A program made the position numbers and the translations under genes. Below the pieces are notes generated by a model. That model did not search any database and was not told the origin of the DNA. It saw nothing but the letters and a program-made list of their open reading frames with translations. Below are positions 10,206-45,181 of a DNA stretch of 64,000 nucleotides, one piece after another. Position 1 is the first letter of the stretch. The number at the start of each line of letters is the position of its first letter. Source of the DNA: a virus; IMG/VR virus record IMGVR_UViG_3300028008_000009, positions 38,439 through 102,438 of that record; one strand, 5' to 3'.

Positions 10206-10212
10206 TATTTAT
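10206..10212 (-). promoter_or_regulatory. T4-type late promoter for the portal operon
   Basis: Minus-strand ATAAATA followed by CACT overlaps the last codon and stop of the tape-measure-like gene and lies 28 bases before the portal ATG. Position fits a late promoter for the head block. Confidence 0.7.
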
Positions 10213-13200
10213 CTAGAGTTCATCATACGAGTGTTTATTTTTGATTTCTCGTTAATGTTGTAGCGTTTAACTATGTCTTGCAATACTTTTACTGTTTCTA
10301 TTGTTGATCTTTTAGCATCAATTAACGCAGATAAATCTTGACTATTGTTCATTATAGCAGGATTTGTTAGTTTTGTCAAGTCTCTTTGTATATCCTGTAG
10401 TTTAGTAGACATTTGATTATCTGCTGGTGCTACTTGAGGTATTTGTGTGTTATCTTCTACTACTGTGTTTACTTCAGTTTCACTGGGTACTTCTGTAGGT
10501 GTTCTATTTTCATCAGCAAGTGTTCTATCTGAATTAAATTGTTCAGACATTTCTTCAAATAACATTTTATTAGTAGATAGATTGTCTGAGAATGTTTTAT
10601 TATCTCCAGATAAGCGTTCAGACATTTCTTCAAATAACATTTTATTAGTAGATAGATTGTCTGAGAATGTTTTATTGTCTCCAGATAAGCGTTCTAAAAC
10701 TTGATTTAAGTATGTCTTATCAGTTAACATGCTATCTAAGAGTTTTTTATTTTCTTCGCCAAGTTGTTCTAACAACGTGGCCATATGCGTTTGATTGTCT
10801 GATAAATCAGGTGTTTGTTCAAGTTTATTATTTTCACCAACAAGTATTTTATTCTCTTCAGATAATTGTTCTATTATATCAAATAATCTTTGTTGACTAG
10901 TTAATGATTCCGCAAATCTTTTATTTTCATTAATAAGTTCTACATTCTGTTCAGTTAGTTGTGATATTTGACTGTTTGATAATGCAGGAATTTTTGCAGT
11001 ATCAGTGATAAGTTTTTTATTATCATCAATGAGTATATTATTTTCATCAATGAGAGTTTTATTCTCATTGAGTAATTGTTCTAGTTGTTCATTTGTTCCA
11101 GCTATATGCGAATCAATCTTTTTTGTATTATCTTGACTTATTTGATCTTTGAGATCTTTATTACTAACTATTTGTCCTGATTGATCTGGCACAAACATTT
11201 CTGCTGTGTCCATGCCCAATTCGTCACCAACAATATATGGTAGTCCAGCTGCAACTGGTCCACCGTGTTTTCTTTGAGGAACAGCGTCACCTACTAGGTT
11301 TACTTGCGCTCCAAGAGAACTGCCATCTACATTGTTTTCGGTAATAGGTTCTTCAAAAAATTTCAAAAGACTATTATCTTCTTTATTAAAGATTTTATCA
11401 CCTGAACCTGAGTAAACAACACCTAAGTTTTGATCAAGTGTAGATTTACCTGTTTCAGAATCAACACCGGTTGTAAGATCACCCGCTGCCATTGATTCTT
11501 TTAATAAGTCATATGCTGATCTGCCTGCTAAATTACCATCGCTATCTGATATTACAAACTGTGCTATTACGCCGGCATTTTGTGCTGTTTCTTCTTGCAG
11601 TGTGCCGTCTTCATTTTCGTCTCGTTCGGTTTTACCGCCTGTCATATTAATAAATTGTGCTGGCCCACCTGCTTCTACAACAGCATCCATTTTTTTGTCA
11701 TATGTATCTAATGCTACAATTAATTTTTCAGCGAACCCGGCATCAACAGTATTAATGTATGCAACTGCACCTTCTAAATTTTTAACATATTCAAGTCCTG
11801 CTGATTCTAACATTTCTAATGTTAGTTTTCCTTCGTTTTCTCGCATGGCTGTAATTATAGCACCTGCATCACTGGCTCTATCTACCTCTACATCGTTGTC
11901 GATTTCTCTTTCAACATCTGGATTAACTTCAGGTCTTTGTACTGCTGATGTATCTGCTACAATACCTGCTAGTGATTCAGCAACTCTTTCGTTATCACCG
12001 CCTGCACCACCAAAGTCATTTAGTTCATCTCCAAAACCTATTAGTGCTATTATTTTGTCTAATTCTTTTTTGCCACTCTTTAAGCTAGATGTTAACATGT
12101 CAAACAGTCCTGCGGTGGTTTCCATATCAACTGTTAATGCTTCCTGTACTGCAATAAACTTTTCACCCATTTCATTCATAGCTAAAACTGTTTTTCCAGA
12201 CTCTTTCAAATCTTTTTGAGAAGTTACGATTTTATCCTCAATTGCTTGTGAATCTGCTAGTTTGCCAAGATCTCTTTCTACTACACTGAATTCAGCAGCC
12301 AATGTTAATAATGCAGATGAAAATTTATCACCGGCGTTTCCTGCGGCTGCTAGTTTAGTTTGGTCTGCATTAGAAAGTGCATCAACTATGAATGATAAAA
12401 ATCCTTCAGCTGGTGCAACACCAGATTTTGTCATTCTTTCTATATCTTCTACTATGTTTACATTCATAGCTGTCAGTTGAGCTTCAAGTCCTGGAGATAT
12501 GTTTTCTAAGACTGCACTCATATCAAAGTTTGTTGGATCGCCAACTGATTTGTATGCAGCTATATTGTAAGCATCTAATAGACCTTGCAGACTCGGAGCT
12601 TTTTCACTCATAAGTTTTACTCCTTGTGCAATCTCTTTTTGTACTTCTGCTGCTTCTGGGAATCCGTTTTTAATAAGTTCTCTTTGTGCTGCTGATCCAT
12701 AATCATCTAATGCTTCCATTGATGCTCGCATGGCTTCTTGACGTGTTAGTGATGTTAAGTTTGCAACTGCTCCGGCTTCTATTTGCATATCAATAAATGT
12801 GCCATTCATTTCTTCAGCACCCTGATTTAGACTCTTATGAAACTGACCAGTTCTACGTTGAAAAGATATAAACTCACCATATGCTGACAGCATATCTTTT
12901 GAGCTCATTCCTAAGTCTCCAAAACTTTCTGCTGTTTTATCTAACTGTTTATAGTATTTTACAAATTGTGTACTACCAGAACTAACACTATCACCAAGTC
13001 CTAGCATACCATCACTAAATGTTCCTAGGGTGTTGGATAGATGCAAGTATGTATTACCTGTGTCTTGTATTCCTTTTCTTAATTCATCGTATGCTGCTGC
13101 GCCGCCATTAAATAAAATACCACTATCTATCATTTTTGCTTGTATTGATGCAAACTGTTCTAATTTGGCTGCATTCCAACCTGCATATGCTAAGAAGGCG

Positions 13201-13670
13201 TCTACTGCAACATTTAAAGTTGTTCCTACACCAGCCATGACAGCACCTGTGCTGTTTGTCATTTTTTCAAAGATCTTAAAACCGCCGCCAGTTGCTTTGG
13301 CACCTGCTGCTAGTTTACTGACTCCATCTGTCATTGCAGTTAATGGCTTTTCGTGATTATTAAAGAAGCCCATTGCTCTATCTAGTTTACTAGAAGCTCT
13401 GACTACCTTTTTCGTAAATTTTTCTTGTTCGGTATCTGATTTATCATCTGCTTTAATATCAACACTTGTTGCTTTTGCCAGTCCGCTAATTTCAGCTTGC
13501 AGATCGCCTAAGTCGCCACCAACTTTTTTCATTACCTTATGGAACATTGCATCAGTTTTTGCTGTTTGGGCCATGTAGCTTGCTACTTGTCCCATTGTTG
13601 CTTCTGAGGCCCATGCTGGTACTTGTATTTCTTCTCCGCCAATTAACAGAGTATGCATTTTATCAGCCAT
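10209..13670 (-). CDS. Tape-measure-like tail protein, no lytic domain
   Basis: This 1153-residue protein has an Ala/Gly-rich, helix-prone N-terminal half with a hydrophobic segment near 140-170, as in tape-measure proteins. Its C-terminal third (about 830-1110) is a long Asn/Asp/Glu/Leu coiled coil with repeated E-N-K or D-N-K triplets. That part contains two identical 25-residue units. It starts 8 bases inside the preceding gene's end with a GGGAG ribosome site. Residues 17-35 (PAWASEATMGQVAS) resemble residues 18-32 of the next protein upstream (YPWASEETARKLAT), and both share overall design, so they are probably paralogues. A tail-length or tail-core role is inferred from size, helicity and context; T4 gp29 itself is not recognisable. 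Confidence 0.55.
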   Translation of the reverse strand: MADKMHTLLIGGEEIQVPAWASEATMGQVASYMAQTAKTDAMFHKVMKKVGGDLGDLQAEISGLAKATSVDIKADDKSDTEQEKFTKKVVRASSKLDRAMGFFNNHEKPLTAMTDGVSKLAAGAKATGGGFKIFEKMTNSTGAVMAGVGTTLNVAVDAFLAYAGWNAAKLEQFASIQAKMIDSGILFNGGAAAYDELRKGIQDTGNTYLHLSNTLGTFSDGMLGLGDSVSSGSTQFVKYYKQLDKTAESFGDLGMSSKDMLSAYGEFISFQRRTGQFHKSLNQGAEEMNGTFIDMQIEAGAVANLTSLTRQEAMRASMEALDDYGSAAQRELIKNGFPEAAEVQKEIAQGVKLMSEKAPSLQGLLDAYNIAAYKSVGDPTNFDMSAVLENISPGLEAQLTAMNVNIVEDIERMTKSGVAPAEGFLSFIVDALSNADQTKLAAAGNAGDKFSSALLTLAAEFSVVERDLGKLADSQAIEDKIVTSQKDLKESGKTVLAMNEMGEKFIAVQEALTVDMETTAGLFDMLTSSLKSGKKELDKIIALIGFGDELNDFGGAGGDNERVAESLAGIVADTSAVQRPEVNPDVEREIDNDVEVDRASDAGAIITAMRENEGKLTLEMLESAGLEYVKNLEGAVAYINTVDAGFAEKLIVALDTYDKKMDAVVEAGGPAQFINMTGGKTERDENEDGTLQEETAQNAGVIAQFVISDSDGNLAGRSAYDLLKESMAAGDLTTGVDSETGKSTLDQNLGVVYSGSGDKIFNKEDNSLLKFFEEPITENNVDGSSLGAQVNLVGDAVPQRKHGGPVAAGLPYIVGDELGMDTAEMFVPDQSGQIVSNKDLKDQISQDNTKKIDSHIAGTNEQLEQLLNENKTLIDENNILIDDNKKLITDTAKIPALSNSQISQLTEQNVELINENKRFAESLTSQQRLFDIIEQLSEENKILVGENNKLEQTPDLSDNQTHMATLLEQLGEENKKLLDSMLTDKTYLNQVLERLSGDNKTFSDNLSTNKMLFEEMSERLSGDNKTFSDNLSTNKMLFEEMSEQFNSDRTLADENRTPTEVPSETEVNTVVEDNTQIPQVAPADNQMSTKLQDIQRDLTKLTNPAIMNNSQDLSALIDAKRSTIETVKVLQDIVKRYNINEKSKINTRMMNSR
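10541..10690 (-). repeat. 75-bp direct tandem repeat inside a tape-measure-like gene
   Basis: Two copies (10541-10615 and 10616-10690) differ at one visible base. Each encodes 25 residues of coiled coil beginning ERLSGDNK, so the frame is kept. Near identity at DNA level implies recent duplication or ongoing conversion. Confidence 0.92.
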
Positions 13671-16600
13671 CGCTACGCTCCCTTTCTAGATTTTGTAATT
13701 TTTTCATTTCAACTGCTAGTTGTGATTCTAACATTATTAATTCGTTTATATCAGCTTCGTTTGTTTCATGTGGATATATTGTAGAATACTGGTCTTGTTC
13801 TTCGTTGATCTGTTCAATTCTGTTAGTCAATGTTTCAATTGTTGCTTGTACAACAATTACGTTTTCTATAACTACTTCATCTTGTGTATCTGTAGCAGTT
13901 GATTTTTTGTCTTCTGCAACTATTGGAGTTAATGAAGTTGTGTCAGTTGTTTCCGTAGAATTATTTTCTAATATTCTTTTTCCATCATTGTAATCTTTTA
14001 ATTGTTGTGCTGGCAATTCATTGCCCATTGCAATTCTCATTGTGGTTGCTGCAACTTGATTCTCTGTCATTGGTACTCCAGGAACATACAATTCGTCAGC
14101 TATTAGAGTATCATTAGTAGAAAGAGAGGAGGTTGTTTCTTCTACAACTACAGTAGTTGTGGAAGAGGTTGTTTCTTGATTACTAAGTTGTTGTTCTTTT
14201 GTTGCTTTTCTTTCCCTTTCTAAATCTAATTGTGCCTTGCTTAGAGCGGTTGCAACTGATTCAATTGAGTGACTAGATCGATTGCCATTTCCATACACAC
14301 TGTTTCCAGTATCTGGATGCGGCAGACTTGCCCACTCACGTGCAAAATCTAGCATAGCATCTCGTATAGTGACAGTTGTATCTCCTTGCAGGTATGCAGC
14401 AAGTTTGGGTCTTTTTGCATAACCATCGTTTCCAACAAGTAATAATTTTCCTAATATGTCTTGGTTTTCTTCTGTAAACTTATCAGTTAAACTTAGTCCA
14501 CTATGTGGGAATATTTCTTGCATTGTGTCGGGTATAATTTGATATTTTCCAACTGCAAATAATCTATCTACATTGTTTGGATTTTTTATTTTTTGAAGCT
14601 CAAAGATTTCTGCAAACGTCATATCTTTTAATGCTTTTCCATCTCTATTTGTATTATGAGTTGATCCAATTATTCTGTCGTTTATTGTTCCTCTATTACT
14701 GCTATTATAACTTCCTTCGCCTTTTCCTATAAAATCTAATAAACGATCTACAGCTGACCCATCAACTGGTGCTGTAATATCTGGTGCATCAGAGTCTGTA
14801 GCCTCAGATGTTGTAAGCATACCCCAATTTTGTGTATTTTCTTTTTGCCCTTGGACATTACGCTGAAGTAACTCTTCTACTTGAGCAAGAGTTTCTTGCA
14901 ATGGTTGTGCTTCTTTTCTTGTTGTTCTAAGTTCTTGTTCGGCTTCGTTGAGATCATTTTGTGCGTTTACGATATTTGAACCATCTTTATCTGGTTGCAG
15001 TTTTGCTTCTTCAAGTTTAGATCTAAGTCTTTCTACAGTAGATAGTTTTCCATCTAAATTTAAAGACGCTAGTTCAATTTTTACATCATTGCGTTGTCGC
15101 ATAAGAACACGATTTTCATCTCGCAAATCATTTCGTCTTTGTTCTGAATCTGTTATTGCTTGACGTCTTTGATCCTTTGTTGCATCCGCAGGTAAAAATG
15201 TAGTGCTTCCACCAATAATAGTTCCTGTGTCAAGTTTAATTGTTTCTAATGAATTTTCTTTTGAGTCGTCGTTAATATTGTTATCAAGTCCAAATATAGA
15301 AGTCCACACAGATGCAAATCCATCTACTGACGTTGCCATAATGTTCATTACTTCGCCTGTGGTTCCAAATCCTGGTGTGATTAAATTTTGTGCTTGAATA
15401 AAAGCCTTGCTCATTCCACCAACAATATCAATAGAATCATCAGCACCATCAACTTTACCAGCTACAGCATCAAGTCTTGCTCGGATATCTGCCATTGTTC
15501 CTTGAAACATCTCAGGCTCTAATAGCATTGCTTGAGCTCTAATTTTTGAAACTTCTAACATGTCTGGAGATAGTCCATCTAGGATAGGACCTTTTCTGAT
15601 TAAATCTACCATCTGAGTCATAGCAAAAATAGTTTGTTCTTCTGTTTTTATTTCGTTTGTTTGGCCTAGTCTTGACATTTCGATAAACTTTTCTAACACA
15701 CCAGGTCCAAGCATTTGCATTTTTTTGATTAATTCGCTGCTCATGTTATTAATAGGCGTATCATCATACTGTATGTCGTTTGCCATATTTGCCATAACAG
15801 TAATTAGTTCTTTTCCTAATTCTTCTCCTAGCATTGGGCCAGCCAGCATCGCAAAAACATCATTAAACCTTAAAATATTATCTTGGGCATCTTCGCCAAA
15901 TTGGTCTCTATAAAAGTCTTGATTTTGCCTCATTGCTTGTTTGAAGTTAGCATTGTCACGTATTAATGCTCTTGAGTCCATTAGTTCTTGCCTACGTCCG
16001 CCCAATGAATCTGCTAGAAATAAACCTACTTTGTTTCCTGTTTCAAAACTACGTACAACTTTATTTTGTTCAATTTCGCTAAATTCATTTACTTCATTTA
16101 ACTCATACAATTGTTTTAATTCATCAGCCATTGCCATTGACAATTGTTTTGGTGCATATCCAAACTGATTCATACGTTTAAACATTTCTGGATTTTCTAA
16201 AAAGTCTAACAACTTACCAGAGCCGTATTGCAATGAACTGCCTATGCCTGTTAATACGTTTGATGTATTTTGCATTACTCCATTGTAATCAGCTAATGTC
16301 ATTCCTAATTGCGCAGCAGTATCACGCAGAGTTGTGTAGTTGTCTTGATCAGACATTACTAATCCCAAATCAATCATTGTTCTTAATTCTTTTTCTTGTT
16401 GAGATATTAATTTACTAAACACTGCTACTACACCGGCGCCGGCTGCTACACCACCTGTTAGCCAAGACGCACCTTTGGCAACTGCACTAATTTTTGGAAA
16501 GGAAGATGTTAATCCTGCTAATCCACCAGCACCGGCAGAAAGTGCTTCTGCTCCTGCGGCAGTTAATTCTGTAATTGCATCTAAACCAGACATGTCTCCG

Positions 16601-16881
16601 CGAACGCCGGCAAATCTGTCTGTATACTTTTTTGTTCTTCTTACACGTGCTGCATTAGCCGCCGAACTAGTTCTCAATTCGCTTGCAGTATCTGATATTG
16701 TTTTCTTTAATTTTTCTGCACCAGAAATACCATGTAATTCTTGAATTGCTATTGCCAGAGCTGTGGCTTTAACGGAATTTCTCGTTGACAAGGTAGCTAG
16801 TTTTCTAGCTGTTTCTTCACTTGCCCATGGATAATTTGCATATACTTGGTCAAGTTGTTGTTTTAAAAGTTCTATGTCCAT
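13663..16881 (-). CDS. Tape-measure-like tail protein with lysozyme-like domain
   Basis: This 1072-residue protein has an Ala/Gly-rich helical N-terminal region with a hydrophobic stretch near 110-155. A muralytic domain spans about residues 710-870. That domain shows LLDFIGKGEG (candidate catalytic Glu near 722), VGKYQI near 779 and REWASLPHP near 840. This order matches the lambda-lysozyme (GH104-like) transglycosylase pattern of E, G-x-Y-Q and W-A-S-L-P. Coiled-coil and Thr/Glu-rich stretches fill 570-690 and 880-1072. Tape-measure proteins often carry such domains to open peptidoglycan during DNA entry. It is the first gene of a minus-strand unit with a late promoter about 60 bases upstream. 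Its paralogue follows directly. Confidence 0.65.
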   Translation of the reverse strand: MDIELLKQQLDQVYANYPWASEETARKLATLSTRNSVKATALAIAIQELHGISGAEKLKKTISDTASELRTSSAANAARVRRTKKYTDRFAGVRGDMSGLDAITELTAAGAEALSAGAGGLAGLTSSFPKISAVAKGASWLTGGVAAGAGVVAVFSKLISQQEKELRTMIDLGLVMSDQDNYTTLRDTAAQLGMTLADYNGVMQNTSNVLTGIGSSLQYGSGKLLDFLENPEMFKRMNQFGYAPKQLSMAMADELKQLYELNEVNEFSEIEQNKVVRSFETGNKVGLFLADSLGGRRQELMDSRALIRDNANFKQAMRQNQDFYRDQFGEDAQDNILRFNDVFAMLAGPMLGEELGKELITVMANMANDIQYDDTPINNMSSELIKKMQMLGPGVLEKFIEMSRLGQTNEIKTEEQTIFAMTQMVDLIRKGPILDGLSPDMLEVSKIRAQAMLLEPEMFQGTMADIRARLDAVAGKVDGADDSIDIVGGMSKAFIQAQNLITPGFGTTGEVMNIMATSVDGFASVWTSIFGLDNNINDDSKENSLETIKLDTGTIIGGSTTFLPADATKDQRRQAITDSEQRRNDLRDENRVLMRQRNDVKIELASLNLDGKLSTVERLRSKLEEAKLQPDKDGSNIVNAQNDLNEAEQELRTTRKEAQPLQETLAQVEELLQRNVQGQKENTQNWGMLTTSEATDSDAPDITAPVDGSAVDRLLDFIGKGEGSYNSSNRGTINDRIIGSTHNTNRDGKALKDMTFAEIFELQKIKNPNNVDRLFAVGKYQIIPDTMQEIFPHSGLSLTDKFTEENQDILGKLLLVGNDGYAKRPKLAAYLQGDTTVTIRDAMLDFAREWASLPHPDTGNSVYGNGNRSSHSIESVATALSKAQLDLERERKATKEQQLSNQETTSSTTTVVVEETTSSLSTNDTLIADELYVPGVPMTENQVAATTMRIAMGNELPAQQLKDYNDGKRILENNSTETTDTTSLTPIVAEDKKSTATDTQDEVVIENVIVVQATIETLTNRIEQINEEQDQYSTIYPHETNEADINELIMLESQLAVEMKKLQNLERERSDG

Positions 16882-16957: not shown

Positions 16958-17788
16958 ATGACGAATCCACTTATACAGGCATATAGGAAGCCTGCTTTGT
17001 ATGTTTCTTTGCCAAGTGGCGGGAATTATTATAAAGAAAAGCCTAAACTCAGCGTTGATGGTGAATTAGCTATCTATAGCATGACTGCTAGAGATGAACT
17101 AATTTCAAAAACACCTGATGCATTGTTCAATGGAGAAGCAACATTTAGTTTAATTAAAAGTTGTGCACCTGACATTGCTGATGCACATGATATGCCAGTT
17201 AATGACCTTATGGTTGTATTAATTGCTATACGCATGGCCAGTCATGGTGATACTATCAGTGTTGACATTAAATGTCCAAAGTGTTCGCACCTAAACCAAC
17301 TTGGTATTAGCACTGCCGGATTGTTGTCTACTGTTGAAGAAAACAAAAGTTCTGACCATATTATATTAGATAATGACTTTAAAGTTAACTGTAAACCTTA
17401 TAGTTTAGCAGACCGTACGCTGTTGCAAATACAACGTATTAAACAAGCTAAATTAATCGAAGGACTTAACAACGAAGATTTATCTGATGAAGAACGTCAG
17501 ATTAGATTTGGTGAGACTTTTATTGAGATTGCTGACATTACTGTTACTCTTATTGCAAATGCAATTACACAAGTAAGTCCACCAGAAGGTGAAAAAGTAG
17601 CTGATCATAATATGATATTGGAATGGTTAAAGAGCATTACCAAAGATGATTATGACAAGATCAAGAACTGTGTAGAAGATTTAAGTGAAAATAATATTGA
17701 CACTAAATTTGATGCAAGTTGTCAAGCATGTGAACATACTTGGAAAACAACAATAGATCTAGACATTGCAAATTTTTTCGTGGGTTGA
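16958..17788 (+). CDS. 26: Baseplate hub/tail assembly protein, gp26-like
   Basis: This 276-residue protein has the N-terminal KPALYVSLPSGGNYY segment (about 12-26) and TARDELISKTPDALFNG (about 44-60), typical of the T4 gp26-type baseplate family. A zinc-ribbon-like arrangement is visible: K-C-P-K-C near residue 108 and C-Q-A-C near residue 259. The ATG follows GGAG by 7 bases. T4 gp26 acts in baseplate hub assembly. Near its 3' end are a slippery heptamer and a hairpin that would extend the product into the -1 frame, giving a fusion of about 356 residues. Adjacent divergent tape-measure-like genes fit a tail-chaperone role. The frameshift model is inference; the family call is from remembered motif patterns. 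Confidence 0.75.
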   Translation: MTNPLIQAYRKPALYVSLPSGGNYYKEKPKLSVDGELAIYSMTARDELISKTPDALFNGEATFSLIKSCAPDIADAHDMPVNDLMVVLIAIRMASHGDTISVDIKCPKCSHLNQLGISTAGLLSTVEENKSSDHIILDNDFKVNCKPYSLADRTLLQIQRIKQAKLIEGLNNEDLSDEERQIRFGETFIEIADITVTLIANAITQVSPPEGEKVADHNMILEWLKSITKDDYDKIKNCVEDLSENNIDTKFDASCQACEHTWKTTIDLDIANFFVG

Positions 17789-17807
17789 TAGCATCTCGAC
17801 AACCCGC
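17770..17807 (+). promoter_or_regulatory. Programmed -1 ribosomal frameshift signal
   Basis: In the gp26-like reading frame the heptamer A AAT TTT (17770-17776) fits X XXY YYZ. It is followed directly by T TTT TTC, a second slippery choice. Five bases after the first heptamer, GTGGGTTG (17780-17787) pairs with CAACCCGC (17800-17807), an 8-bp stem with one wobble. The -1 frame then stays open for 83 codons, whereas the zero frame stops at 17788. Confidence 0.75.
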
Positions 17808-18027
17808 TGAAATAGATGAAATATTAAAACGTTACAACAAAGATCTTGAACAAACTGAAGCCGGCTATTTAGACTTAGTTATTAAATCGGGAGGCTTGGT
17901 AAGTTATGAACAAATACTGGCAATGCCACTTGATGTATTGTCCATGTTTGTTGAGCGTTTGAATAAACATAGAGAAGAACAAAATCAGGCCGCTGCAGCA
18001 GCGTCAAAGCCTAAGGGCAGAAGATAA
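17776..18027 (+). CDS. -1 frame extension, gp51-position tail assembly domain
   Basis: After the slippery site this frame encodes 83 residues. They form a predicted helical domain (E-I-D-E-I-L-K-R-Y-N onward) ending in an Ala/Lys-rich tail. Independent initiation is poorly supported: the only upstream in-frame start is a TTG at 17740 inside the gp26-like gene with no ribosome site, and another TTG lies at 17785. T4 places gp51, a baseplate hub assembly factor, as a separate gene; here the equivalent position seems reachable mainly by frameshifting. The design parallels the G/GT tail chaperones of lambda-like phages. The stop at 18027 directly abuts the convergent gene. Confidence 0.65.
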   Translation, partial: FRGLIASRQPAEIDEILKRYNKDLEQTEAGYLDLVIKSGGLVSYEQILAMPLDVLSMFVERLNKHREEQNQAAAAASKPKGRR

Positions 18028-33958: not shown

Positions 33959-36900
33959 ATGGCTAAGAAAAAAGCAGGAAGTTATAACACTCCAATCACA
34001 AAAGCATCTAATTTATTACCTCAGGTTTTTAATACTGATGTAAATAAAAAATGGTTAGACAGTACGTTAGACCAGATGATTTCAAAAGGTAGCCTCAAAA
34101 ACGTTGAAGGCTATATTGGAGATACTTCGGGCAAGAATAGAAATGTCGGAGACACTTACACAAGCGAACAAAAATTATCACCTACAGTTACAGTTAAAGA
34201 TGAGAATAAAAATCTAGTAGATGCAATTACACCAGATGACATTGCAAACTCTGTTAATATTAATTTCTCAGAATACAATTATAGTTCTGCCAATGCTAAT
34301 AAAAAATACAGTTATCGTCCACCAATTAATGTAAACAAGTTTATAAATTATACAAACTATGCATGGGTTGACCAAATGCCTACATACGAAAGTGTGCGAA
34401 CACTTAATGCGGCAACTGTAGATGCAGCAAATCCAAGTATACCAACTGGCTCAGACTTACCCGGTGGACCGTCGGATGGTGATTACTTTGCGTTAGACAC
34501 TGGTGGCACAGTAAGAACATACAGATATTCTATCTCTATTAATAAATGGCAACCTAGTAAAACTACTAATGCAATATATAGCAAAAATGGAAACAATGAA
34601 GGTTATACAACATCTATTAATCCAGTAGAACTTTCAGCTAATCAATTAAGATATATTGTGGAAGACAATAATAATACATTTGCATTAGCAGACCAAATGC
34701 TTATTAGATTTGTTGGCGATGGATGGGACCCTAGTTCAAAGATAGGTACATATCTTGTAACAGGCACAGGCAACGGAATAAAATTAGTACCTTGGTACAA
34801 TTGGGCCTATGGTACACAAATATATCCAATGACAACAAAAACTACAATAACAGTAGGTGGCATCTGGGACGAAAGCACGGTAACAATAGTTTCCCCAAAT
34901 ACAAATAGTTCTATGTGGAATAATAATCTTACACACTTTGGAACAATGATGACTGCATACAATGAAGATGCCAATAGATTACCTATATTTGATGGGTTCG
35001 TATTTAATAATGCAGAATCAAACCCAACACAATTTATGGAAGATAAGTTAATTGTATTTGGTCCTGAATGGGTTACCGCTAATGAGAATCCTGCACTCGA
35101 TCCGCTTGAATATTATAAAGTATATTACACTAGTAGAAATAGTACAACTGGTGATGTTTCAGTTAATGTATTCATTGACGCAATGCAAGAAAACAATGCA
35201 ATAAAACAATATATAGCAACAGGCGTATCAGAAAAGGTATGGGAAAAGTATAAGGATCAACTTATAGGTTTCGATGAATTAACTTGGGATAAATCTACAG
35301 CTATAGTTTCAGCAAAAGATTATATAGTTTCAACAACAGACAGTCCATTTAGAACTGCTTGGAGCAGAAACAACAAATGGACAGACATTAGCACATTAAA
35401 GAAAGTTAACGAACTAGTACATGACGGTATTGATCTTAAAACTTTAATAGAATCTAAGAACATTGCAAAGCGTCCTATTATAGAATTTGACGGCAAGCTG
35501 AATCTATGGGATTGGGCAAGTTACTCACCGGAACTAGGTAATAATCAATGGTTAGGCGTAGCTGACTTTATGGTTAAGCCAACTGGCGACTATGCATTAG
35601 AAACTGTCAATGGTGTACTTAGATTTGCTACACCAGATAAAGTAGAAATTAATCCAACTGATAAAACTCGTATAATATTTACAGAAAGCGAGCACCAAAA
35701 TAAAGTATGGAAAATTACATTAAATGGTACACACAAACAATTAACATCAGTTACTGATCTCCAAATCAATCATGTTATGTATGTTAGAAATGCATCGCCA
35801 GATACACAAGATAGATTATGGACAAACAGTGATGTTTGGTTTGATGGTGCAAAATGGAAAATAGGACAACAACGCATTGACAATAATCAAATGCCACTGT
35901 TTAGACTTTACACAGCAGACGGTGTAGCACTTGAAACACTTGACGGTGTAGTATTCAACGGCAGCAGAGTATTCAATTACAAATTAGGCTCGGGACATGT
36001 TGATAAGGAATTAAATCATTCACTATCTTATAAAGATGTCAACGGCAGAGCTGAATATCAATTTGAGAATTATTTGTTCACTGAAGATTATTTTCAAAAT
36101 GTTAGGTCAGATGCAAATAGAGATATTACACATCGTAGAAAAATTCCAGGACAATACTTCTTCAAGCATAATAACAAGCTGAGTACATTATATAAACAAA
36201 GCGAAGATATTGCTGGTGCTGAAACATTACTAACAACAGATGTTACAAGTGTAAAAACAGACTTAGAAATTGCTGTCGGATGGAATGCTTGGAGAACAAA
36301 TCGTATTGTTCAATTACACCAAGCCGGCAAGGAATGTGTGTTAACTGAATTACAAAATGGTGTTTACTTAGATAAGACAAATATCAATCATAATAATATT
36401 TACGTAGGTAAAAGCATACAAGTTGAGTTTGACAACTTATTAGAAAACAGTAATATTAAATTTAAAACTGTAAGTGGAACAGAAATTAATATAAACAATT
36501 ATGATCCAAATCAAACAGGATACACGCATAACGTATCTGGAATAGAAATGTGGAGAGATATTAATTACAACATTGTATTAAACGTTACTACATACAATGA
36601 TAAAATTATTATCGAGCCAGATGACTTAACACTAACAAATAACTATACAATTATACCGCTTGACGACTACGATGAAATAGATCATACTGTAGAGATCAAT
36701 GGTGTACATTTGTCAGCTAACCAATATACAATCAGTGCAGACACTATTACTATACCTAAAGAATTAATAAAAGTCAACGATATTGTTGATGTAAGATATA
36801 CAAACAATGACAATGATAATAGAGCAACAAACATTTCTATTCCAAATACATTAAAGCATAATGCAACCAACGAGTTAATAAAAGACTTTACTCATAGCGA

Positions 36901-39900
36901 AACAATAGGCCACTGGCAGAGTATAATAAACTCAACACCTGGATTCGAAGGTAACATATATTCTACCAACAACTATGAAGCGATAAACACGCACACAGTA
37001 TTTGGTGGTAACTTATTCATATACAAAGACCTTAGTTTAGTACACGATGCCTTGTACGCAAGCAACCAAATAGATTTAACTAATGTACTAATATCAACAG
37101 GTGAAGAATGGGATAATTTTAAAAGTAGATTCTCAAGTCAAGTAAGTAGACTTTATGCAAGCAAGCCTTACACATCGGTTAGAGCATTAGTTGACGAGGC
37201 ACTAAAATCAATTACAGTTATTCGCAAGGGCGGTGATTTATATTCAACGTCTAATATGGTTTACTTTGAAAAGACAAAAGCACAAAAACTTGTTATTGAG
37301 CATACTTTATCTTTTCCTACATTAAAATTAAAAAACAACATTCACAGCGATACTAACATACAAGACCATGCATATGTTTATATAACCGAGCTTATCAATA
37401 CAAAGCTATCTACGAGATTAGCAGTAAAAGATATTGACTATTATCAAATTGGTAACACAGTTACATTTACATATCAGCCAGTTGGTACAGCAACTGATAG
37501 TCCATACATAGAAGTTTATTATCATCAAATGGATGGCCAATCAAATGTTCCACCAAGTTTAACTAAACTTAGACTTGCACCTGCACATGTTCCAACATTT
37601 GTCTCCGGCACATTGATTGGACACGATTGTGCAATAAAAAAGGGAAGAGTAGATTCTGTAGTAAATGATATGAACTCAGACAAATTTGATGTCGTGTTAT
37701 CTGCATTATTTGAATTAGAGAAAAGAGTATATGCTGGACTTGTAAAAGGTGATAATATTAATTCGGATAACGAAAACATAAACTATGGATTTACTTCTAT
37801 GTTTATACCAAACAAGTCAAGAAAAACTTGGTACACATTAGACGTAGTTAATAATGCATTGTATAGACATTTCAAAAAATGGAAAGCTAAGTATATCGGC
37901 GAAAACATTACACCAGCAGGCTATGATGCTAACGATCCTAAAACATGGAACTGGAGCAATTCTGCAGTAGGTGGACATTTTAAAACTAACAAACTACCAG
38001 GGCATTGGACTGGAGCATACGAAGTATTGTTTGGAACACAAACTCCACACCTTACGCCGTGGCACATGCTTGGTCATGCATTCAAACCTACTTGGTGGGA
38101 TTCAAAATACAGTTGGGTTGACCCTACAAAACGTGCAGCTCTAATCAAAGCACTAAAGCATGGCTCTATATCAGAGACAAGACAGGACACAGAATGGGCA
38201 AACTACATGTGGGATTGGGATAATTATTGCCCAGTTAAAACTGATGGTTCACCTGAAAACATTGATAATGTGTTAGGTAGCGTGTCGGAATTCGACGCCG
38301 CACAAGAATTTGTGTTTGGTGATTGGGCTGGACTAGAGGGCGTGTGGAGAAATACTTCTGCAGGCAAGGCTGCATTAATAGATGTATTATTGAAACTAAA
38401 TCCAACAAAAGCATTTGGTAAATTTTACGCACCTGGTACTGCTAGACTAGAGAAGCATTTAGACTTCTTAGACAGAGACGGTAATATTAATACACTATCT
38501 TCTAATTTAATACCAGCAAAGATTTACAAACGAGTAATATCAGATATTACTATAGAAACTATAGATCAATTTGCACGTGGTACATTTATTAGACTTGCAG
38601 GACCACAAGGTGGAGTTGATGCAATAGTTACACCTAACTTTGTTGGCTCTTCTAATATGTCTTACATAGATGGAGTAAGCCTATCATCAAGAGGCAGAAA
38701 CTTAACAAACACACCTGCATTGTATACCAACTTTACACAAAAGCAAATTGATACTTCAACTGTTACATACGAAACAAAAGAAGTACAACATGTGTCATCT
38801 GGTATAGCTCAAGCATTATATAATTTTGTAACACAAAATAATATCAATTATAGTATTGATAATTTGCATAACAGAATAGATACACATTTTGGAACACGAC
38901 TAAATGGATTCTCAAGTAAACACTTGTTAGATTTTAAAACAGATACATTTGATACAACAAATCATACGCTTAGTGAAAATGATTTTGAACTAGCTATGTA
39001 TGAAAGTACACCTATTAATATTGCAATTGCAAGTTCAATTACAATTGAAAAGACAAACCAAGGTTGGCAGATTACAGGAGCCGGATACGGTAAACAAGAG
39101 TTTGCATTCTTTGAACCAAATTATACTAACTCAACTTCTTACACAAATGTACAAATTGGAACACACGAAGTTAAACAATATAAAAACTTCGCTCCTATAC
39201 ATAGCGTAATAGATTATGAAACAACACTTAAAAAGATACAAGATACTTATTCGTTCATACGTGGGTACTATGTATATCTTGAATCAATTGGTTTTACATT
39301 CCCATACAGCGGAGATAGTGTAGCAGTATCATTTGTCAAGTGGGCATTAAGTTCAAATTATGGTGATACTAAAACATTCGACTTGGGTACAAATTTAAAG
39401 TTTGCACCAACACACGGCAATGTATTAGAGCTTAACACTAGCATATATAAAGAAAATACAATAGCAACATTGGACAGCACAAGTATTGACACATCAAACT
39501 TATTCATTGATAGAGTCGATAATATATTGTCGTTGGAAACTATCGACAACACTATTATTGGTTCGGTTGGATTTGTTGTAGTTGAACATGACCATATAGC
39601 ATTGTTAAATGATAAAACAACATTTGGTGTTGTTGTTCATGATGATGTAAAAGATATATCACAAGATAGAGTATCATTTAGAGGATTAATAACAAGCAAC
39701 TGGACTGGACACAAACGTGCTCCTGGTTACCTAGTGTTTGATAATAAGATTGTTGAAAACTTTGATAGCAGTGTACAATCAATTGATGATTACTATAGAA
39801 CTGATAGCATAGATTTTAATCCAGCAATTACAAAACTAGAAGATATAACAATTGGCAACTCAAATAAAAATCTTGCAATATACGGAAAAGAATTTGATGC

Positions 39901-42900
39901 TATTAGTAAACGTAATTATTTCCAAGGACTAATTAAAGAAAGCGGCACACTAGGAAGCGTAGATAAAATTGATCGTAAATTTGCAATAAACAATTTAGAT
40001 GTTTCAGTTAACGAACAGTATATGCTGGCGAGAAGTTATTTCGGAAGTACCGATAGATTAGATAGTGTAGAATTTACATTAGACAATAATCAAAATCAAA
40101 ATAGCACACAGGCTATTAAGTTTTCTGATTATGCAATCGGCGAAACAACATATGACGATGTGTTATTATATAAACACAATGATAAAAGATTTGTTAACCC
40201 ATTTAAGAATAACAGTGTTGATAAATTTACAACAAAAGATATTACTCGCGTGGACAGTGTTAGCTTAACAGCAGGTTCTGTACTAGATGCTGAAACAAAA
40301 TACAAATCAGCAAACACACGTGGTATTGGTTCAGTGTACAATGCACTTGAGGACTATGCAACTATACCATCATGGATTAATACAAAAAGTTACAAGTTAG
40401 GCGATAGAGTTAGAAATCAAGGAAGACTACTTGAATGTGTAGTTGCAAGTACAACAATTACAAGAGGCGGCGATGCTGATATTAGCATACAAGGTGTTGC
40501 AGTTAATCCAGAATTTGATTACGGAACAATTGCTACAATAGATGGTGTAGCAACACAGTTTACTGATATTGTTAAACAGTATGCAACTATAGAGTTAACA
40601 GGCACTGAAAGCAATCCCACAGTTACACCAACGTCTAATGATACATTTTCAATTGACGGAGAAGCTATTTCGTTTAACAATCCAGTAGAAACACCAGTTG
40701 TTGATGGACCAGCAGTTGACGTAGGTGGCAACCCAGATCCAGAATTTAGCGATGTGACTGGCAAGAGTATTAGTATCAACGGTACGAACATTAACTTTGA
40801 TACTACACCAAGTGATGTAATAGAAACTTTTGCAGGCGAAGACATTGGTGTTACACCAAGTGATGTAGTAGAAAATATTACAGGTATTGCAGCACAACAA
40901 ACATACACAATTATTCAATCATTAAGTGGATCAACATATAGTGTCAGTGGTGTTACGGTTGACGGAACAGCAAACACAGACTTTACAATAAGCGGTCAAG
41001 ACATTACATTTAATACTCCAACATTTGCAGGTAGCGAAGTTATTGCAGTTACAATGACACATGCTACAGTAGTAGACTTAAAAGATACATTTACAATTGC
41101 ACAAGATCTGTCAGGGTTATACTTTGTTAATACAGTTACAGTTGACGGTGTTGTAAAAACTAGCCCAACACATTATTCAGTAAGTGGACAAGACTTAATA
41201 TTTACAGCAGGCAACGAACCAACAGTTGGTCAAGCAATTGTTGTAACAATGGCGCACACTTCTGTGTCAATGACAACAGCAGAAATTGTTGCTAGAATAA
41301 ACAGCGAACTTTCTGCAGCAAGCATCAACATAACACCTGGTGTTACTGGCGCCGTATTTGCAGATTTAAGTCCAACAGCACAGCCGGTAGATTCAAGACT
41401 ACGTATAAGATATTGGTCACCCACTATTAGTGACGACTTGATTATAACAGGTGATGCTGATATTATGATAAACGATTTAGGATTCCCTACAGCAACAACA
41501 ACTAGTCCACCAGAACAAAGTTTAGACTTAATACAACAACCATTAAACTTAGCTGGTATTATAACTCAGATTAATTCAGTTGTGGGATTACCTCACATAA
41601 CTGCATCTGCATCTGGTACTTCATTAAAATTAACAAGTGATAGCGGCGGCAGTAGATCTACAATAGTAGTAGCTGGAAATATTGCAGCATCAATAATGGG
41701 TACAGCATTAACAAAGGATGCAGTGTTGGAAGATGTACAAGTTAAAACAACAATGATAAATGCAGTACAACAAATCAACAATGCGCTAACTGCCGCAAAC
41801 AAAACTGGTGTATCACTAACAACAACAGGTAGTGTTGTTAATATTATTTCAACAAATGCAACACTTGAACTATCAGCACAAGGAGATAGCTTCTTATCAC
41901 AAGCAGGTATATCTGAGTTTGGAACAGTTAACAGGATTACAGATGATACAATTAATAATTCAATCTTACCAGCAGAATGGACTGACATCAGTTACAAAGA
42001 CCCAGCATTGTTTAATATTTGGGTTGCTAACGATTCAGATTATACTGTTGAATCAGTAGATACAATTAAAACAAAATTCTTTGGATGGAATGTATTCCAA
42101 ATGCAAAATAATGGACTGTTTCCAACTACAGCAGCTGACTGTCCAATATGTGCAGGTACATCAACCACCGACGGCAATGATGCACAGATCACCACAAATG
42201 TTAGTCATAACTTAGCAGTAGGTGACTACATTATGTTAATGAACACAACAACTATTCCTAATATAGATGGTATACACAAAGTAACTAAAGTTGAAGGAAC
42301 TGATAGATTTTACATAGACGAGTACATTGACCGATGCGGTAGTGCTTCGAGTATCATGTTATTACGTTCTGTAAGATTTGATACAATTGCAGATAGAACA
42401 GCAGCACTTGAAACTACAAAATGGAATGTACCACCTGGATCAAATGTTTGGACAGACTACAATGCAAATGGAGAGCGTTCTGTAAATGTGTTTAGTTTAG
42501 ATTATCCAAATGATGGTGGAGCAGTATTAACTGGTGCAAGTTATACAGCGGGTTACTTAAATGCAAATGTTAATCAAAGTACACCTCCATACACATTGAA
42601 TTCAATACGTAGTGCTACAAAAGTAATTACAAATACAGACTTAGACAATATTACAATATATGACTATGAGAACAATACACCTATACTTGATTTAGAATTG
42701 TATGACCCGATGCGTGGAATTATTCCTGGCGTTGCAGATGCAGAGATTGATGTTAAGAGTGTACATGATGTAGCTATATATAATACATCTACAGAAGAAA
42801 CATACGAAGCAGATGAAGATAACGCTTGGGGCAACGAAGAAGTAGGCAGACGTTGGTGGGATACAGGCAGAGTAAGATTTTACGATTACGACCAAGGTGA

Positions 42901-45181
42901 TATCAATGACAAGGCAATCAATTGGGGTAGGCAGTTTATTGATAGTGAAATTGTAGTCTGGGAATGGACCAAAAGTACAGTAGCACCAGATGATTATGCA
43001 AAGGCAGTTGCTGGCAACAAAGTAATGTTTGGTGTACCAGCTAGTGGTACAGCATATGCTGAATTTGATGCAATTAAAAACCAAAACGAATATTATTATA
43101 CATTACAAACTGTTTGGAATAACAAAACAGCAACAAATGATAATGTATACTACTTCTGGGTACGCAACAAAGAAACTATTGGCAGTAAAGATAAAAATAT
43201 TATCACAAGTGAGGTTGAAAATATTATTGCAAACCCAAGTGCAAACGGCATATATTGGTTCTCAATAATTGACAATGATGCTATTATTTTATCGGACATT
43301 TGGGATTTTGTTAACAAAAAAGTTGTGGTACAATTAAACAAAAAGTTAATAAGTAACAATCATCAAAATTGGATACTGTTAAGCAAGGACTCAGATATTG
43401 TTCCTGATTATTGGTACACTGGTTTAGTAAACAATTTAGCTGCGCACGATAAAAACGAATTACGTATTCCAGATTTTAACAAACATCCATATGCAAGATA
43501 CGGTGATGACAGAGCTAATAGACAAGCATGGTTTGATGATGTACCTACTGCAAGAACAACCGCAGTTGACATTATTAATAGATTGTTAGTATCAGTTAAT
43601 GTTTATGATGATTGTAAAGATAAATTCCAATCTCAAATTAAAACATTAAAATTATTAGACCATACATGGGACTGGGCAGATTATATTACAGCAGATCATT
43701 CTTCAGAAAGCACATACATAACAGATGTTGAAACAGTTGAACAGCTTGAAGCACTTGATGTTTCTAATTATGAAACTGCAAAAATTGAAATCATAAACGA
43801 AGATGAAGTTGACAGATCAGAATTTTACACGTATACTGTTAGTGATGGATGGAAGTTAACTAAGAAGAAAAATGCTACAATCAAATTAAGCGAACTTCTT
43901 TTAGGTAAATCATACGCATGGGATATTGAAGCATGGGATACTACGCCGTGGTCAAATACTGCTATTGCAGATTGGTGGATTGGTATAATTGCAGTGTTAA
44001 GAGATACCGTGTTCGTTGGTAATCATCAAAGCAAATTTAATAAGTTTTTCTTTAGTATGATAGACTATACTATGGCAAGAAACTTACAGGTTGATTGGGC
44101 AATGAAAACATCTTACATACGTTTGAACATTAGCAGTGAACTAACACAACAAAAGAAATATAAGAAAGATAATGTTGCAGTCATAGAAGGTTATGTAAAT
44201 GAAGTTAAACCTTTCCATGTTAAGATAAGTGAAACAAATAGAAACTTTACTAACCTCGACAAAACTACACTGAATGTTACTGAACTAAGTCACAACAAAG
44301 TTATAACTATAAAACATGATAACAAAGGTTTAAACTTTGAAGGACTAGTTATAGATGCCAATGAAAGTCTAACCAAAGACATTGTATTAACAAACAAGGG
44401 TGTTGCTATTAAGAAATATACTATACTAGAAACAGATGCAATACTTGAAACACATGCTAACCAAGATGATGGCGAGTGGGATATTACAAGTGTCACAGAC
44501 GACACAGGCACTCTTGTAGTTGACGTTGATTATTATCAAATAGATCAAGTACTTATGTTTACTGTACCTCCAACTGGTGATATTACACTAAGTCTTAAGT
44601 ATCTCAAAGACATAATTATATCAGGAGGCGATGCAAGCGATACGCCTGGTACTATCAACGGCGGAATAGCAGACTACAGCGAATTAGAAAGATCAACAGA
44701 AGTACGTCTAAGACCACAAGAGGTTGTGTCAATAGTCGTGCAGACAAACAGAGCAGGATCAACAGACGATACAGAAACAAGAACATTTGCATATATCAAA
44801 GATGTGTTTAGTCGTGAACATGTATTTGCATTACAGGATGCTAAGAGCACAACACTTGCAAGCGATATAACATCTAACATTATATCAGTTGCAACAGCAA
44901 GTAATCTTGTAGGTGCAGAATATATATTAGTTAACGACGAAGTAATGCAAGTGACAGTTGATGGAAGTACAATACGTATTTTAAACAGAGCAGTCAACGG
45001 AACATTTGAACACAAACATTTATCAGGAAGTAGAATTACTGATATTACAGATGTTGCAGTATCATTTATGAATCCAGTCACTGACAGAAGATTTAATGAT
45101 GTAGGAACAACATTACTGGATAGTACAACAACTGACGAAGCAGTGTTGTTAAACAGTTTAGGAAAAGGCGTAGTGCTATAA
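33959..45181 (+). CDS. Giant 3740-residue baseplate/tail structural protein
   Basis: This single frame of more than 11 kb follows gp6 with a ribosome site (AGGATAAG). In T4 the next wedge gene after gp6 is gp7 (1032 residues); this protein may occupy that role with large additions, but no gp7 signature is recognised. The N-terminal 1500 residues are Asn/Asp/Tyr/Trp-rich. At about 2315-2440 two tandem beta modules share the pattern (T-x-T-I..L-S-G..V-T-V-D-G..Y/F-x-x-S-G-Q-D..V-T-M). A related unit appears near residue 900. At 2440-2660 repeated helical segments I-x-x-x-I-N-x-x-L/V resemble flagellar hook-associated modules. No signal peptide or enzyme motif is seen. Virion localisation is inferred from context. 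Confidence 0.75.
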   Translation: MAKKKAGSYNTPITKASNLLPQVFNTDVNKKWLDSTLDQMISKGSLKNVEGYIGDTSGKNRNVGDTYTSEQKLSPTVTVKDENKNLVDAITPDDIANSVNINFSEYNYSSANANKKYSYRPPINVNKFINYTNYAWVDQMPTYESVRTLNAATVDAANPSIPTGSDLPGGPSDGDYFALDTGGTVRTYRYSISINKWQPSKTTNAIYSKNGNNEGYTTSINPVELSANQLRYIVEDNNNTFALADQMLIRFVGDGWDPSSKIGTYLVTGTGNGIKLVPWYNWAYGTQIYPMTTKTTITVGGIWDESTVTIVSPNTNSSMWNNNLTHFGTMMTAYNEDANRLPIFDGFVFNNAESNPTQFMEDKLIVFGPEWVTANENPALDPLEYYKVYYTSRNSTTGDVSVNVFIDAMQENNAIKQYIATGVSEKVWEKYKDQLIGFDELTWDKSTAIVSAKDYIVSTTDSPFRTAWSRNNKWTDISTLKKVNELVHDGIDLKTLIESKNIAKRPIIEFDGKLNLWDWASYSPELGNNQWLGVADFMVKPTGDYALETVNGVLRFATPDKVEINPTDKTRIIFTESEHQNKVWKITLNGTHKQLTSVTDLQINHVMYVRNASPDTQDRLWTNSDVWFDGAKWKIGQQRIDNNQMPLFRLYTADGVALETLDGVVFNGSRVFNYKLGSGHVDKELNHSLSYKDVNGRAEYQFENYLFTEDYFQNVRSDANRDITHRRKIPGQYFFKHNNKLSTLYKQSEDIAGAETLLTTDVTSVKTDLEIAVGWNAWRTNRIVQLHQAGKECVLTELQNGVYLDKTNINHNNIYVGKSIQVEFDNLLENSNIKFKTVSGTEININNYDPNQTGYTHNVSGIEMWRDINYNIVLNVTTYNDKIIIEPDDLTLTNNYTIIPLDDYDEIDHTVEINGVHLSANQYTISADTITIPKELIKVNDIVDVRYTNNDNDNRATNISIPNTLKHNATNELIKDFTHSETIGHWQSIINSTPGFEGNIYSTNNYEAINTHTVFGGNLFIYKDLSLVHDALYASNQIDLTNVLISTGEEWDNFKSRFSSQVSRLYASKPYTSVRALVDEALKSITVIRKGGDLYSTSNMVYFEKTKAQKLVIEHTLSFPTLKLKNNIHSDTNIQDHAYVYITELINTKLSTRLAVKDIDYYQIGNTVTFTYQPVGTATDSPYIEVYYHQMDGQSNVPPSLTKLRLAPAHVPTFVSGTLIGHDCAIKKGRVDSVVNDMNSDKFDVVLSALFELEKRVYAGLVKGDNINSDNENINYGFTSMFIPNKSRKTWYTLDVVNNALYRHFKKWKAKYIGENITPAGYDANDPKTWNWSNSAVGGHFKTNKLPGHWTGAYEVLFGTQTPHLTPWHMLGHAFKPTWWDSKYSWVDPTKRAALIKALKHGSISETRQDTEWANYMWDWDNYCPVKTDGSPENIDNVLGSVSEFDAAQEFVFGDWAGLEGVWRNTSAGKAALIDVLLKLNPTKAFGKFYAPGTARLEKHLDFLDRDGNINTLSSNLIPAKIYKRVISDITIETIDQFARGTFIRLAGPQGGVDAIVTPNFVGSSNMSYIDGVSLSSRGRNLTNTPALYTNFTQKQIDTSTVTYETKEVQHVSSGIAQALYNFVTQNNINYSIDNLHNRIDTHFGTRLNGFSSKHLLDFKTDTFDTTNHTLSENDFELAMYESTPINIAIASSITIEKTNQGWQITGAGYGKQEFAFFEPNYTNSTSYTNVQIGTHEVKQYKNFAPIHSVIDYETTLKKIQDTYSFIRGYYVYLESIGFTFPYSGDSVAVSFVKWALSSNYGDTKTFDLGTNLKFAPTHGNVLELNTSIYKENTIATLDSTSIDTSNLFIDRVDNILSLETIDNTIIGSVGFVVVEHDHIALLNDKTTFGVVVHDDVKDISQDRVSFRGLITSNWTGHKRAPGYLVFDNKIVENFDSSVQSIDDYYRTDSIDFNPAITKLEDITIGNSNKNLAIYGKEFDAISKRNYFQGLIKESGTLGSVDKIDRKFAINNLDVSVNEQYMLARSYFGSTDRLDSVEFTLDNNQNQNSTQAIKFSDYAIGETTYDDVLLYKHNDKRFVNPFKNNSVDKFTTKDITRVDSVSLTAGSVLDAETKYKSANTRGIGSVYNALEDYATIPSWINTKSYKLGDRVRNQGRLLECVVASTTITRGGDADISIQGVAVNPEFDYGTIATIDGVATQFTDIVKQYATIELTGTESNPTVTPTSNDTFSIDGEAISFNNPVETPVVDGPAVDVGGNPDPEFSDVTGKSISINGTNINFDTTPSDVIETFAGEDIGVTPSDVVENITGIAAQQTYTIIQSLSGSTYSVSGVTVDGTANTDFTISGQDITFNTPTFAGSEVIAVTMTHATVVDLKDTFTIAQDLSGLYFVNTVTVDGVVKTSPTHYSVSGQDLIFTAGNEPTVGQAIVVTMAHTSVSMTTAEIVARINSELSAASINITPGVTGAVFADLSPTAQPVDSRLRIRYWSPTISDDLIITGDADIMINDLGFPTATTTSPPEQSLDLIQQPLNLAGIITQINSVVGLPHITASASGTSLKLTSDSGGSRSTIVVAGNIAASIMGTALTKDAVLEDVQVKTTMINAVQQINNALTAANKTGVSLTTTGSVVNIISTNATLELSAQGDSFLSQAGISEFGTVNRITDDTINNSILPAEWTDISYKDPALFNIWVANDSDYTVESVDTIKTKFFGWNVFQMQNNGLFPTTAADCPICAGTSTTDGNDAQITTNVSHNLAVGDYIMLMNTTTIPNIDGIHKVTKVEGTDRFYIDEYIDRCGSASSIMLLRSVRFDTIADRTAALETTKWNVPPGSNVWTDYNANGERSVNVFSLDYPNDGGAVLTGASYTAGYLNANVNQSTPPYTLNSIRSATKVITNTDLDNITIYDYENNTPILDLELYDPMRGIIPGVADAEIDVKSVHDVAIYNTSTEETYEADEDNAWGNEEVGRRWWDTGRVRFYDYDQGDINDKAINWGRQFIDSEIVVWEWTKSTVAPDDYAKAVAGNKVMFGVPASGTAYAEFDAIKNQNEYYYTLQTVWNNKTATNDNVYYFWVRNKETIGSKDKNIITSEVENIIANPSANGIYWFSIIDNDAIILSDIWDFVNKKVVVQLNKKLISNNHQNWILLSKDSDIVPDYWYTGLVNNLAAHDKNELRIPDFNKHPYARYGDDRANRQAWFDDVPTARTTAVDIINRLLVSVNVYDDCKDKFQSQIKTLKLLDHTWDWADYITADHSSESTYITDVETVEQLEALDVSNYETAKIEIINEDEVDRSEFYTYTVSDGWKLTKKKNATIKLSELLLGKSYAWDIEAWDTTPWSNTAIADWWIGIIAVLRDTVFVGNHQSKFNKFFFSMIDYTMARNLQVDWAMKTSYIRLNISSELTQQKKYKKDNVAVIEGYVNEVKPFHVKISETNRNFTNLDKTTLNVTELSHNKVITIKHDNKGLNFEGLVIDANESLTKDIVLTNKGVAIKKYTILETDAILETHANQDDGEWDITSVTDDTGTLVVDVDYYQIDQVLMFTVPPTGDITLSLKYLKDIIISGGDASDTPGTINGGIADYSELERSTEVRLRPQEVVSIVVQTNRAGSTDDTETRTFAYIKDVFSREHVFALQDAKSTTLASDITSNIISVATASNLVGAEYILVNDEVMQVTVDGSTIRILNRAVNGTFEHKHLSGSRITDITDVAVSFMNPVTDRRFNDVGTTLLDSTTTDEAVLLNSLGKGVVL

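Follow-up and report, generated by a model that had tools for sequence, protein, structure and literature searches.

Gene content of the locus

We analysed a 64,000-nucleotide stretch of the virus record IMGVR_UViG_3300028008_000009 (hereafter the window), in which a gp26-like gene is overlapped at its 3′ end by a second reading frame and is preceded by two large genes on the opposite strand. The features considered here are:

10209..13670, minus strand, divergent gene for a 1153-aa protein that resembles tape measures in composition and in one motif
13663..16881, minus strand, divergent gene for a 1072-aa protein without cysteine, matching unnamed PHROGs only
16958..17788, plus strand, gp26-like gene of 276 codons with PF12322 and phrog_150 matches, putative short chaperone form (TAC-N type)
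17770..17776, plus strand, A AAT TTT slippery heptamer, whose conservation is confined to the clade of the window
17773..17779, plus strand, T TTT TTC slippery heptamer, the deeply conserved putative shift site
17779..18027, plus strand, −1 frame extension with a conserved peptide (TAC-C type), 82 aa after Phe-Phe, stop included
17780..17787, plus strand, 5′ arm of a likely stimulatory hairpin, conserved core 17782-17788
17786..17788, plus strand, 0-frame stop TGA within the hairpin, read from the sequence
17800..17807, plus strand, 3′ arm of the likely stimulatory hairpin, with pairing conservation and a covarying pair

The 276-aa product matches PF12322 (T4_baseplate) at an E-value of 4.8e-20, its 72.6 bits lying far above the curated cut-off of 24.5 and placing it in the family, and phrog_150 (baseplate hub) at 1.7e-21, in agreement with the initial annotation, which had called the gene gp26-like. 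It contains two CxxC pairs, its predicted fold (pLDDT 85.9) is matched in BFVD by T4-like baseplate hub assembly proteins, and neither sequence nor fold searches returned a solved structure for the family. In the sequence and the ORF list the gene ends GCA AAT TTT TTC GTG GGT TGA.

Neither of the two divergent neighbours contains cysteine; both are long, and their sequences are not related to one another. Both had been taken for tape-measure-like proteins, and in favour of this a stretch of the 1153-aa protein resembles one that we take to come from tape measures. Against it, neither protein has a tape-measure name in PHROG or Pfam, and the tape measure predicted in Atu_ph07 is another gene, gp701 (PMC6102473). 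Where the window has its two large, overlapping minus-strand neighbours, PA5oct and GAP32 each have a single gene; in PA5oct mass spectrometry identified the product of the gene occupying the place of the 1072-aa neighbour as a virion protein. Elsewhere in the window, an ORF of 3740 aa (33959-45181, plus strand) lies just past a baseplate wedge gene.

A conserved slippery site at the end of the gene

The heptamers A AAT TTT and T TTT TTC overlap and are both in register for a −1 slip, with the frame and coordinates first proposed for them. TTTTTTC occurs 17 times in the window against 21 expected, without enrichment, and the heptamer alone is explicable by chance; the case rests on conservation because the count is not raised, and the position and conservation of the site exceed chance. 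The comparison drew on 137 loci, 133 of which were parsed (the window's own copy and T4 were kept outside the set, and two loci were truncated before the stop); ten remote loci were set apart and the other 123 comprised 84 distinct sequences.

The conservation that the initial annotation had named as a check is complete for T TTT TTC: every one of the 84 distinct relatives has it in frame, and so has every one of the 76 distinct cyanophage-type loci (from the best 80 of 598 encoding a relative). Codon use predicts the TTT-TTC spelling of Phe-Phe in ~15 of the 84 relatives, against 84 observed. The residue before Phe-Phe varies, its codon being of nine kinds, with the third base always T (84/84, where codon use predicts ~51). 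The final C of the heptamer is conserved partly because of an arginine codon in the −1 frame, a constraint which itself argues that the −1 frame is translated there. The upstream heptamer has a different history, a valid XXXYYYZ motif being present in 49 of 50 distinct members of the window's clade compared with one of the 34 others. At the end of the gp26 gene of XacN1 (L145) the heptamer reads T TTT TTT, the sole variant among 13 phage records.

A conserved peptide in the −1 frame

The −1 frame ends at TAA 18025-18027, and joining it to the gp26-like frame gives a fusion of 356 residues, 82 of them after Phe-Phe, the length that had been predicted. A homologous −1 peptide is open to its stop in 83 of the 84 distinct relatives (the exception, L124, runs off its contig) and the extension is present in all 13 phage records examined, out of 63 found. 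Phe-Phe-Arg occurs in the −1 frame in 82/84, upstream of any usual start codon in most, and is replaced by Phe-Phe-Gln in two PA5oct-type rows. The pattern of the peptide is kept, with a Tyr...Met-Pro stretch and a charged helix at its end, and changes are rarest at the second codon position of the −1 frame (511 of 2352, vs. 1241 and 1376). AlphaFold models the extension as an all-helical domain (pLDDT 86.7), for which BFVD gave no fold match below E 0.4 and Pfam and PHROG gave no name at useful E-values.

The −1 frame had been described as lacking a good start of its own, which holds with one caveat, a TTG at 17784 that overlaps the stop as TTGA. Between the last upstream stop and 75 nt past the site, the −1 frame of 18 of the 84 relatives is free of ATG, GTG and TTG. 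Where a start codon exists its kind and place differ, and most relatives are without the clear downstream start that would have told against frameshifting. The extension is conserved independently of any start of its own, as in a pair of the G/GT kind. As annotated, it is joined to gp26 in none of the 13 phage records, where it is left out, cut at an internal start or called a hypothetical protein or predicted ORF, an annotation which can now be mended.

A hairpin specific to the window's clade

Just past the shift site, GTGGGTTG (17780-17787) pairs with CAACCCGC (17800-17807) to form the 8-bp stem that the initial annotation had proposed, with a predicted energy of −11.3 kcal/mol and the 0-frame stop codon TGA held in the stem. 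Against shuffled sequences this is modest alone (z −1.90; 9 of 200 shuffles fold as well). When pairing was scored on 41 distinct 44-nt rows from the window's clade, 92.3% of cells were paired, vs. at most 49.5% when the arms were slid. The fourth pair is never broken in these rows, occurring as C-G in 18, U-A in 16 and U-G in 7; the outermost pair is weak (14/41 unpaired) and the innermost less so (8/41). The two bases of the fourth pair are, in the −1 frame, the first of a leucine codon and the third of a glutamine codon; both are synonymous sites, and as both are free to change silently their covariation points to RNA structure.

With simple shuffles, no comparable stem was seen at the other 34 loci (median z −0.61) or in cyanophages (median z −1.3). 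The hairpin is likely a stimulator specific to the window's clade. The five-base spacer originally described applies from A AAT TTT to the conserved core at 17782, whereas the full 8-bp stem begins after 3 nt; the core starts just 2 nt past T TTT TTC, which, like the missing hairpin in deeper relatives, is a point against the mechanism proposed below. Given the lack of such a stem elsewhere, we take T TTT TTC to be the old signal and the hairpin, together with the extended slippery run, to be an apparent local addition.

Proposed mechanism and alternative explanations

By far the best reading is a programmed −1 frameshift, by which this marine, T4-like phage would make a short and a long tail-assembly chaperone. 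We place the probability that the end of the gp26-like gene carries a programmed −1 frameshift, yielding a 276-aa short form and a 356-aa long form as a tail chaperone pair, at roughly 0.93. Most ribosomes would read the gp26-like frame to TGA 17786-17788 and release the short form; a fraction would move one base back on AAT-TTT-TTC, helped by the hairpin in the window's clade, and continue to 18027 to give the long form. By analogy with lambda G/GT, the tape measure protein may be coated by both forms while the tail is assembled, and the long form may recruit tail tube subunits through its C-terminal helical domain.

The downstream frame might instead be a separate small gene, translated by reinitiation at TTG 17784 where it overlaps the stop. 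A TTG stands at this place in 25 of the 84 distinct relatives, with ATG at or near it in a few; PBECO4 has an ATG in TAATG and the frame annotated as its own gene, and Cygsa01 combines an ATG of its own with no usable heptamer. The same codon is CTG in 18 of the 41 distinct rows of the window's clade, PA5oct joins the relatives that have no start codon at all, and no purine-rich ribosome site was seen by eye before 17784. The conserved −1 peptide also begins at Phe-Phe-Arg, upstream of the candidate start, and we regard reinitiation as very unlikely in the window. Slippage of the polymerase on the T6 run, producing mixed mRNAs, would leave nearly the same sequence as ribosomal slippage, and the six-T run is conserved. 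Six T is, however, short for efficient transcriptional slippage, the third-base T before the two Phe codons completes the ribosomal heptamer exactly, and a pair of the hairpin covaries at the RNA level, leaving transcriptional slippage a slender chance.

An assembly error, or a decayed gene split by a frameshift mutation, might be suspected in a metagenomic record of 102438 bases that is not closed. All 84 distinct relatives, which come from many samples and include cultured phages, have the same split; this refutes both and makes them scarcely credible here. Chance, assembly error and an independent start all fail as explanations. Ribosomal frameshifting draws on a conserved shift site, a −1 peptide that is conserved too, a hairpin in which one pair covaries and the homology to gp26 and gp51, and its support is as good as sequence alone allows.

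As to the biological role, gp26 and gp51 are listed in the literature as hub assembly chaperones, gp51 being needed and absent from the particle; the same source reports genetic studies that locate gp26 within the hub, which speaks against its being purely a chaperone (PMC3004832). The gp26 of phage CBB (CBB_250) is annotated as structural, which does not fit a chaperone that departs from the virion. For PA5oct, EST35_0147 carries no mark of detection by mass spectrometry.

Relation to T4 gp26 and gp51

Both T4 gp26 and T4 gp51 belong to PF12322 (E 8.8e-64 and 3.9e-52), the match in gp51 covering residues 1-201 and leaving ~48 extra C-terminal residues. Aligned with this C-terminal stretch, the cyanophage −1 peptide scores prob 97 and E 8.7e-11. 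The −1 peptide of the window and jumbo group aligns weakly, at prob 35 and E 4e-4, a score reached by none of 200 column-shuffled controls. Against gp51, the cyanophage fusion gives prob 99 and E 3e-18, the window and jumbo fusion prob 47 and E 2e-4. Their shared family and the tree described next show gp26 and gp51 to be paralogues, and the extension probably corresponds to the gp51 C-terminus, the link of the window's group being weak on its own. The tie to gp51 drawn in the initial annotation is upheld by gp51 being a PF12322 protein whose C-terminal part is matched by the −1 peptide of cyanophages.

A tree built on the shared domain joins the gp26 and gp51 of T4-type phages as sisters (96/84), with the frameshifting phages Aeromonas 65.2, SRB7757 and the cyanophages as neighbours, the forks placing 65.2 and SRB7757 being weak. 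T4, kvi, Ac42 and 50AhydR13PP have two PF12322 genes each, and each of nine frameshift-type records has one; among the latter is the window's own 102-kb record, possibly a fragment, which thus lacks the T4-type two-gene arrangement. SCTP-2, one of the 14 records, gave no PF12322 match at the same threshold. No separate gp51 gene was found in the frameshift phages with PF12322 or with a gp51 profile, the latter missing even the jumbo gp26. In S-RIM8 (L143) what is annotated as a 45-aa 'baseplate hub assembly catalyst' (2232-2369) is the final part of gp26's −1 extension.

T4 spells Phe-Phe as TTC TTT, which is not slippery, and gene 25 occupies its −1 frame at this point. We read these relations as a frameshifting ancestor whose gene was doubled in the T4 line. 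This matches the published view, for which PMC10885494 cites Vladimirov et al. 2022, that in some T4-like phages a short copy exists beside a long, fused one. Poly-T slippery sites are described in short-form genes of T4-like phages (PMC12846349).

Remote relatives with other arrangements

The remote relatives are the part of the result most worth attention. In four of them (L127, L128, L129 and L133) the C-domain is in frame (L127: prob 96.7, E 4.5e-10), and in L127, L129 and L133, whose contigs (G001-G003) were the three searched for it, a short PF12322-type copy lies directly upstream of the long copy in tandem. A first tree with a single L127 copy grouped it with L130 and L131; in a second, which took both copies and only from L127, these lay across a 100/100 branch from the T4 pair and were not joined as sisters, which suggests that the L127 tandem pair may be old. 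The L127-type tandem appears from this placement to be a two-gene arrangement separate from that of T4.

In three further loci the C-domain lies in the +1 frame, L130 with prob 89 and L135 with prob 73, L131 being less clear with prob 35, and a +1 frameshift in the same gene family is possible in all three; the site before the C-domain in L130 is GGG TTT TTT TGG. The +1-frame C-domain is positioned near 2350 in L130, near 3214 in L135 and near 3253 in L131. L132 was considered as a further +1 case and rejected, the profile giving no support. In L134 and L136 the C-domain is in the −1 frame at prob 25 and prob 9. In Pseudomonas phage Cygsa01 the downstream frame has a separate start.

We consider the odds about even that the gp26/gp51 family has rebuilt its short-plus-long output repeatedly: by T TTT TTC alone, by the composite heptamer and hairpin that would have arisen in the window's marine clade, by a +1 extension (L130, L135), and by an overlapping gene that starts independently (Cygsa01), frameshifting having been lost on at least two occasions when the gene was doubled (the divergent T4 type and the tandem L127 type). 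If true, the family would be a natural series on the gain and loss of a decoding signal.

Comparison with known systems

In their abstract, Vladimirov and colleagues reportedly describe frameshifting as conserved in several T4-like groups. The T4-like chaperone genes were identified by Vladimirov, Gautam and Davidson (2022, Virology 566:9-15), with gp26 as the short and gp51 as the long form, as cited in PMC10885494 and PMC12846349. The initial annotation was right to link this locus to chaperones of the lambda G/GT type, as the conserved shift site and −1 extension indicate, and the link that it drew between the T4 hub genes and G/GT was already in print. The window resembles T4-like gp26/gp51 in its Pfam family and in pairing a short form with a long form that has the same C-terminal domain, and differs in that T4 uses two divergent genes, the window one gene and a putative frameshift.

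The lambda G/GT heptamer is GGGAAAG, other than the window's. In lambda, two products with a common N-terminus arise when ribosomes shift to the −1 frame close to the gene's end (PMC5009743), as is proposed here, but the proteins belong to another family; the candidate tape measure genes of the window are divergent and not downstream. Cyanophage gp51 is described as 'only ~20% of the length' (PMC3037559); the short gp51 of S-RIM8 is likewise a −1 frame tail after T TTT TTC, annotated as its own gene and far from the window's in sequence. The chaperones of Vandenendeviridae and Andersonviridae, as described in PMC12846349, use a poly-T −1 frameshift and resemble the window in having a conserved T run ending the short form and an uninterrupted −1 frame; their motif is GTTTTT and they are other phage families.

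For a chaperone frameshift in jumbo phages we found no paper in the open-licence literature, an absence which says little. Relative to these systems the idea itself is already published; what is new is this member, its composite shift site, and the remote relatives, some of which pair two genes in another way than T4 while others have the extension in the +1 frame, and the gain lies in the breadth of the comparison and in the clade-specific candidate stimulator.
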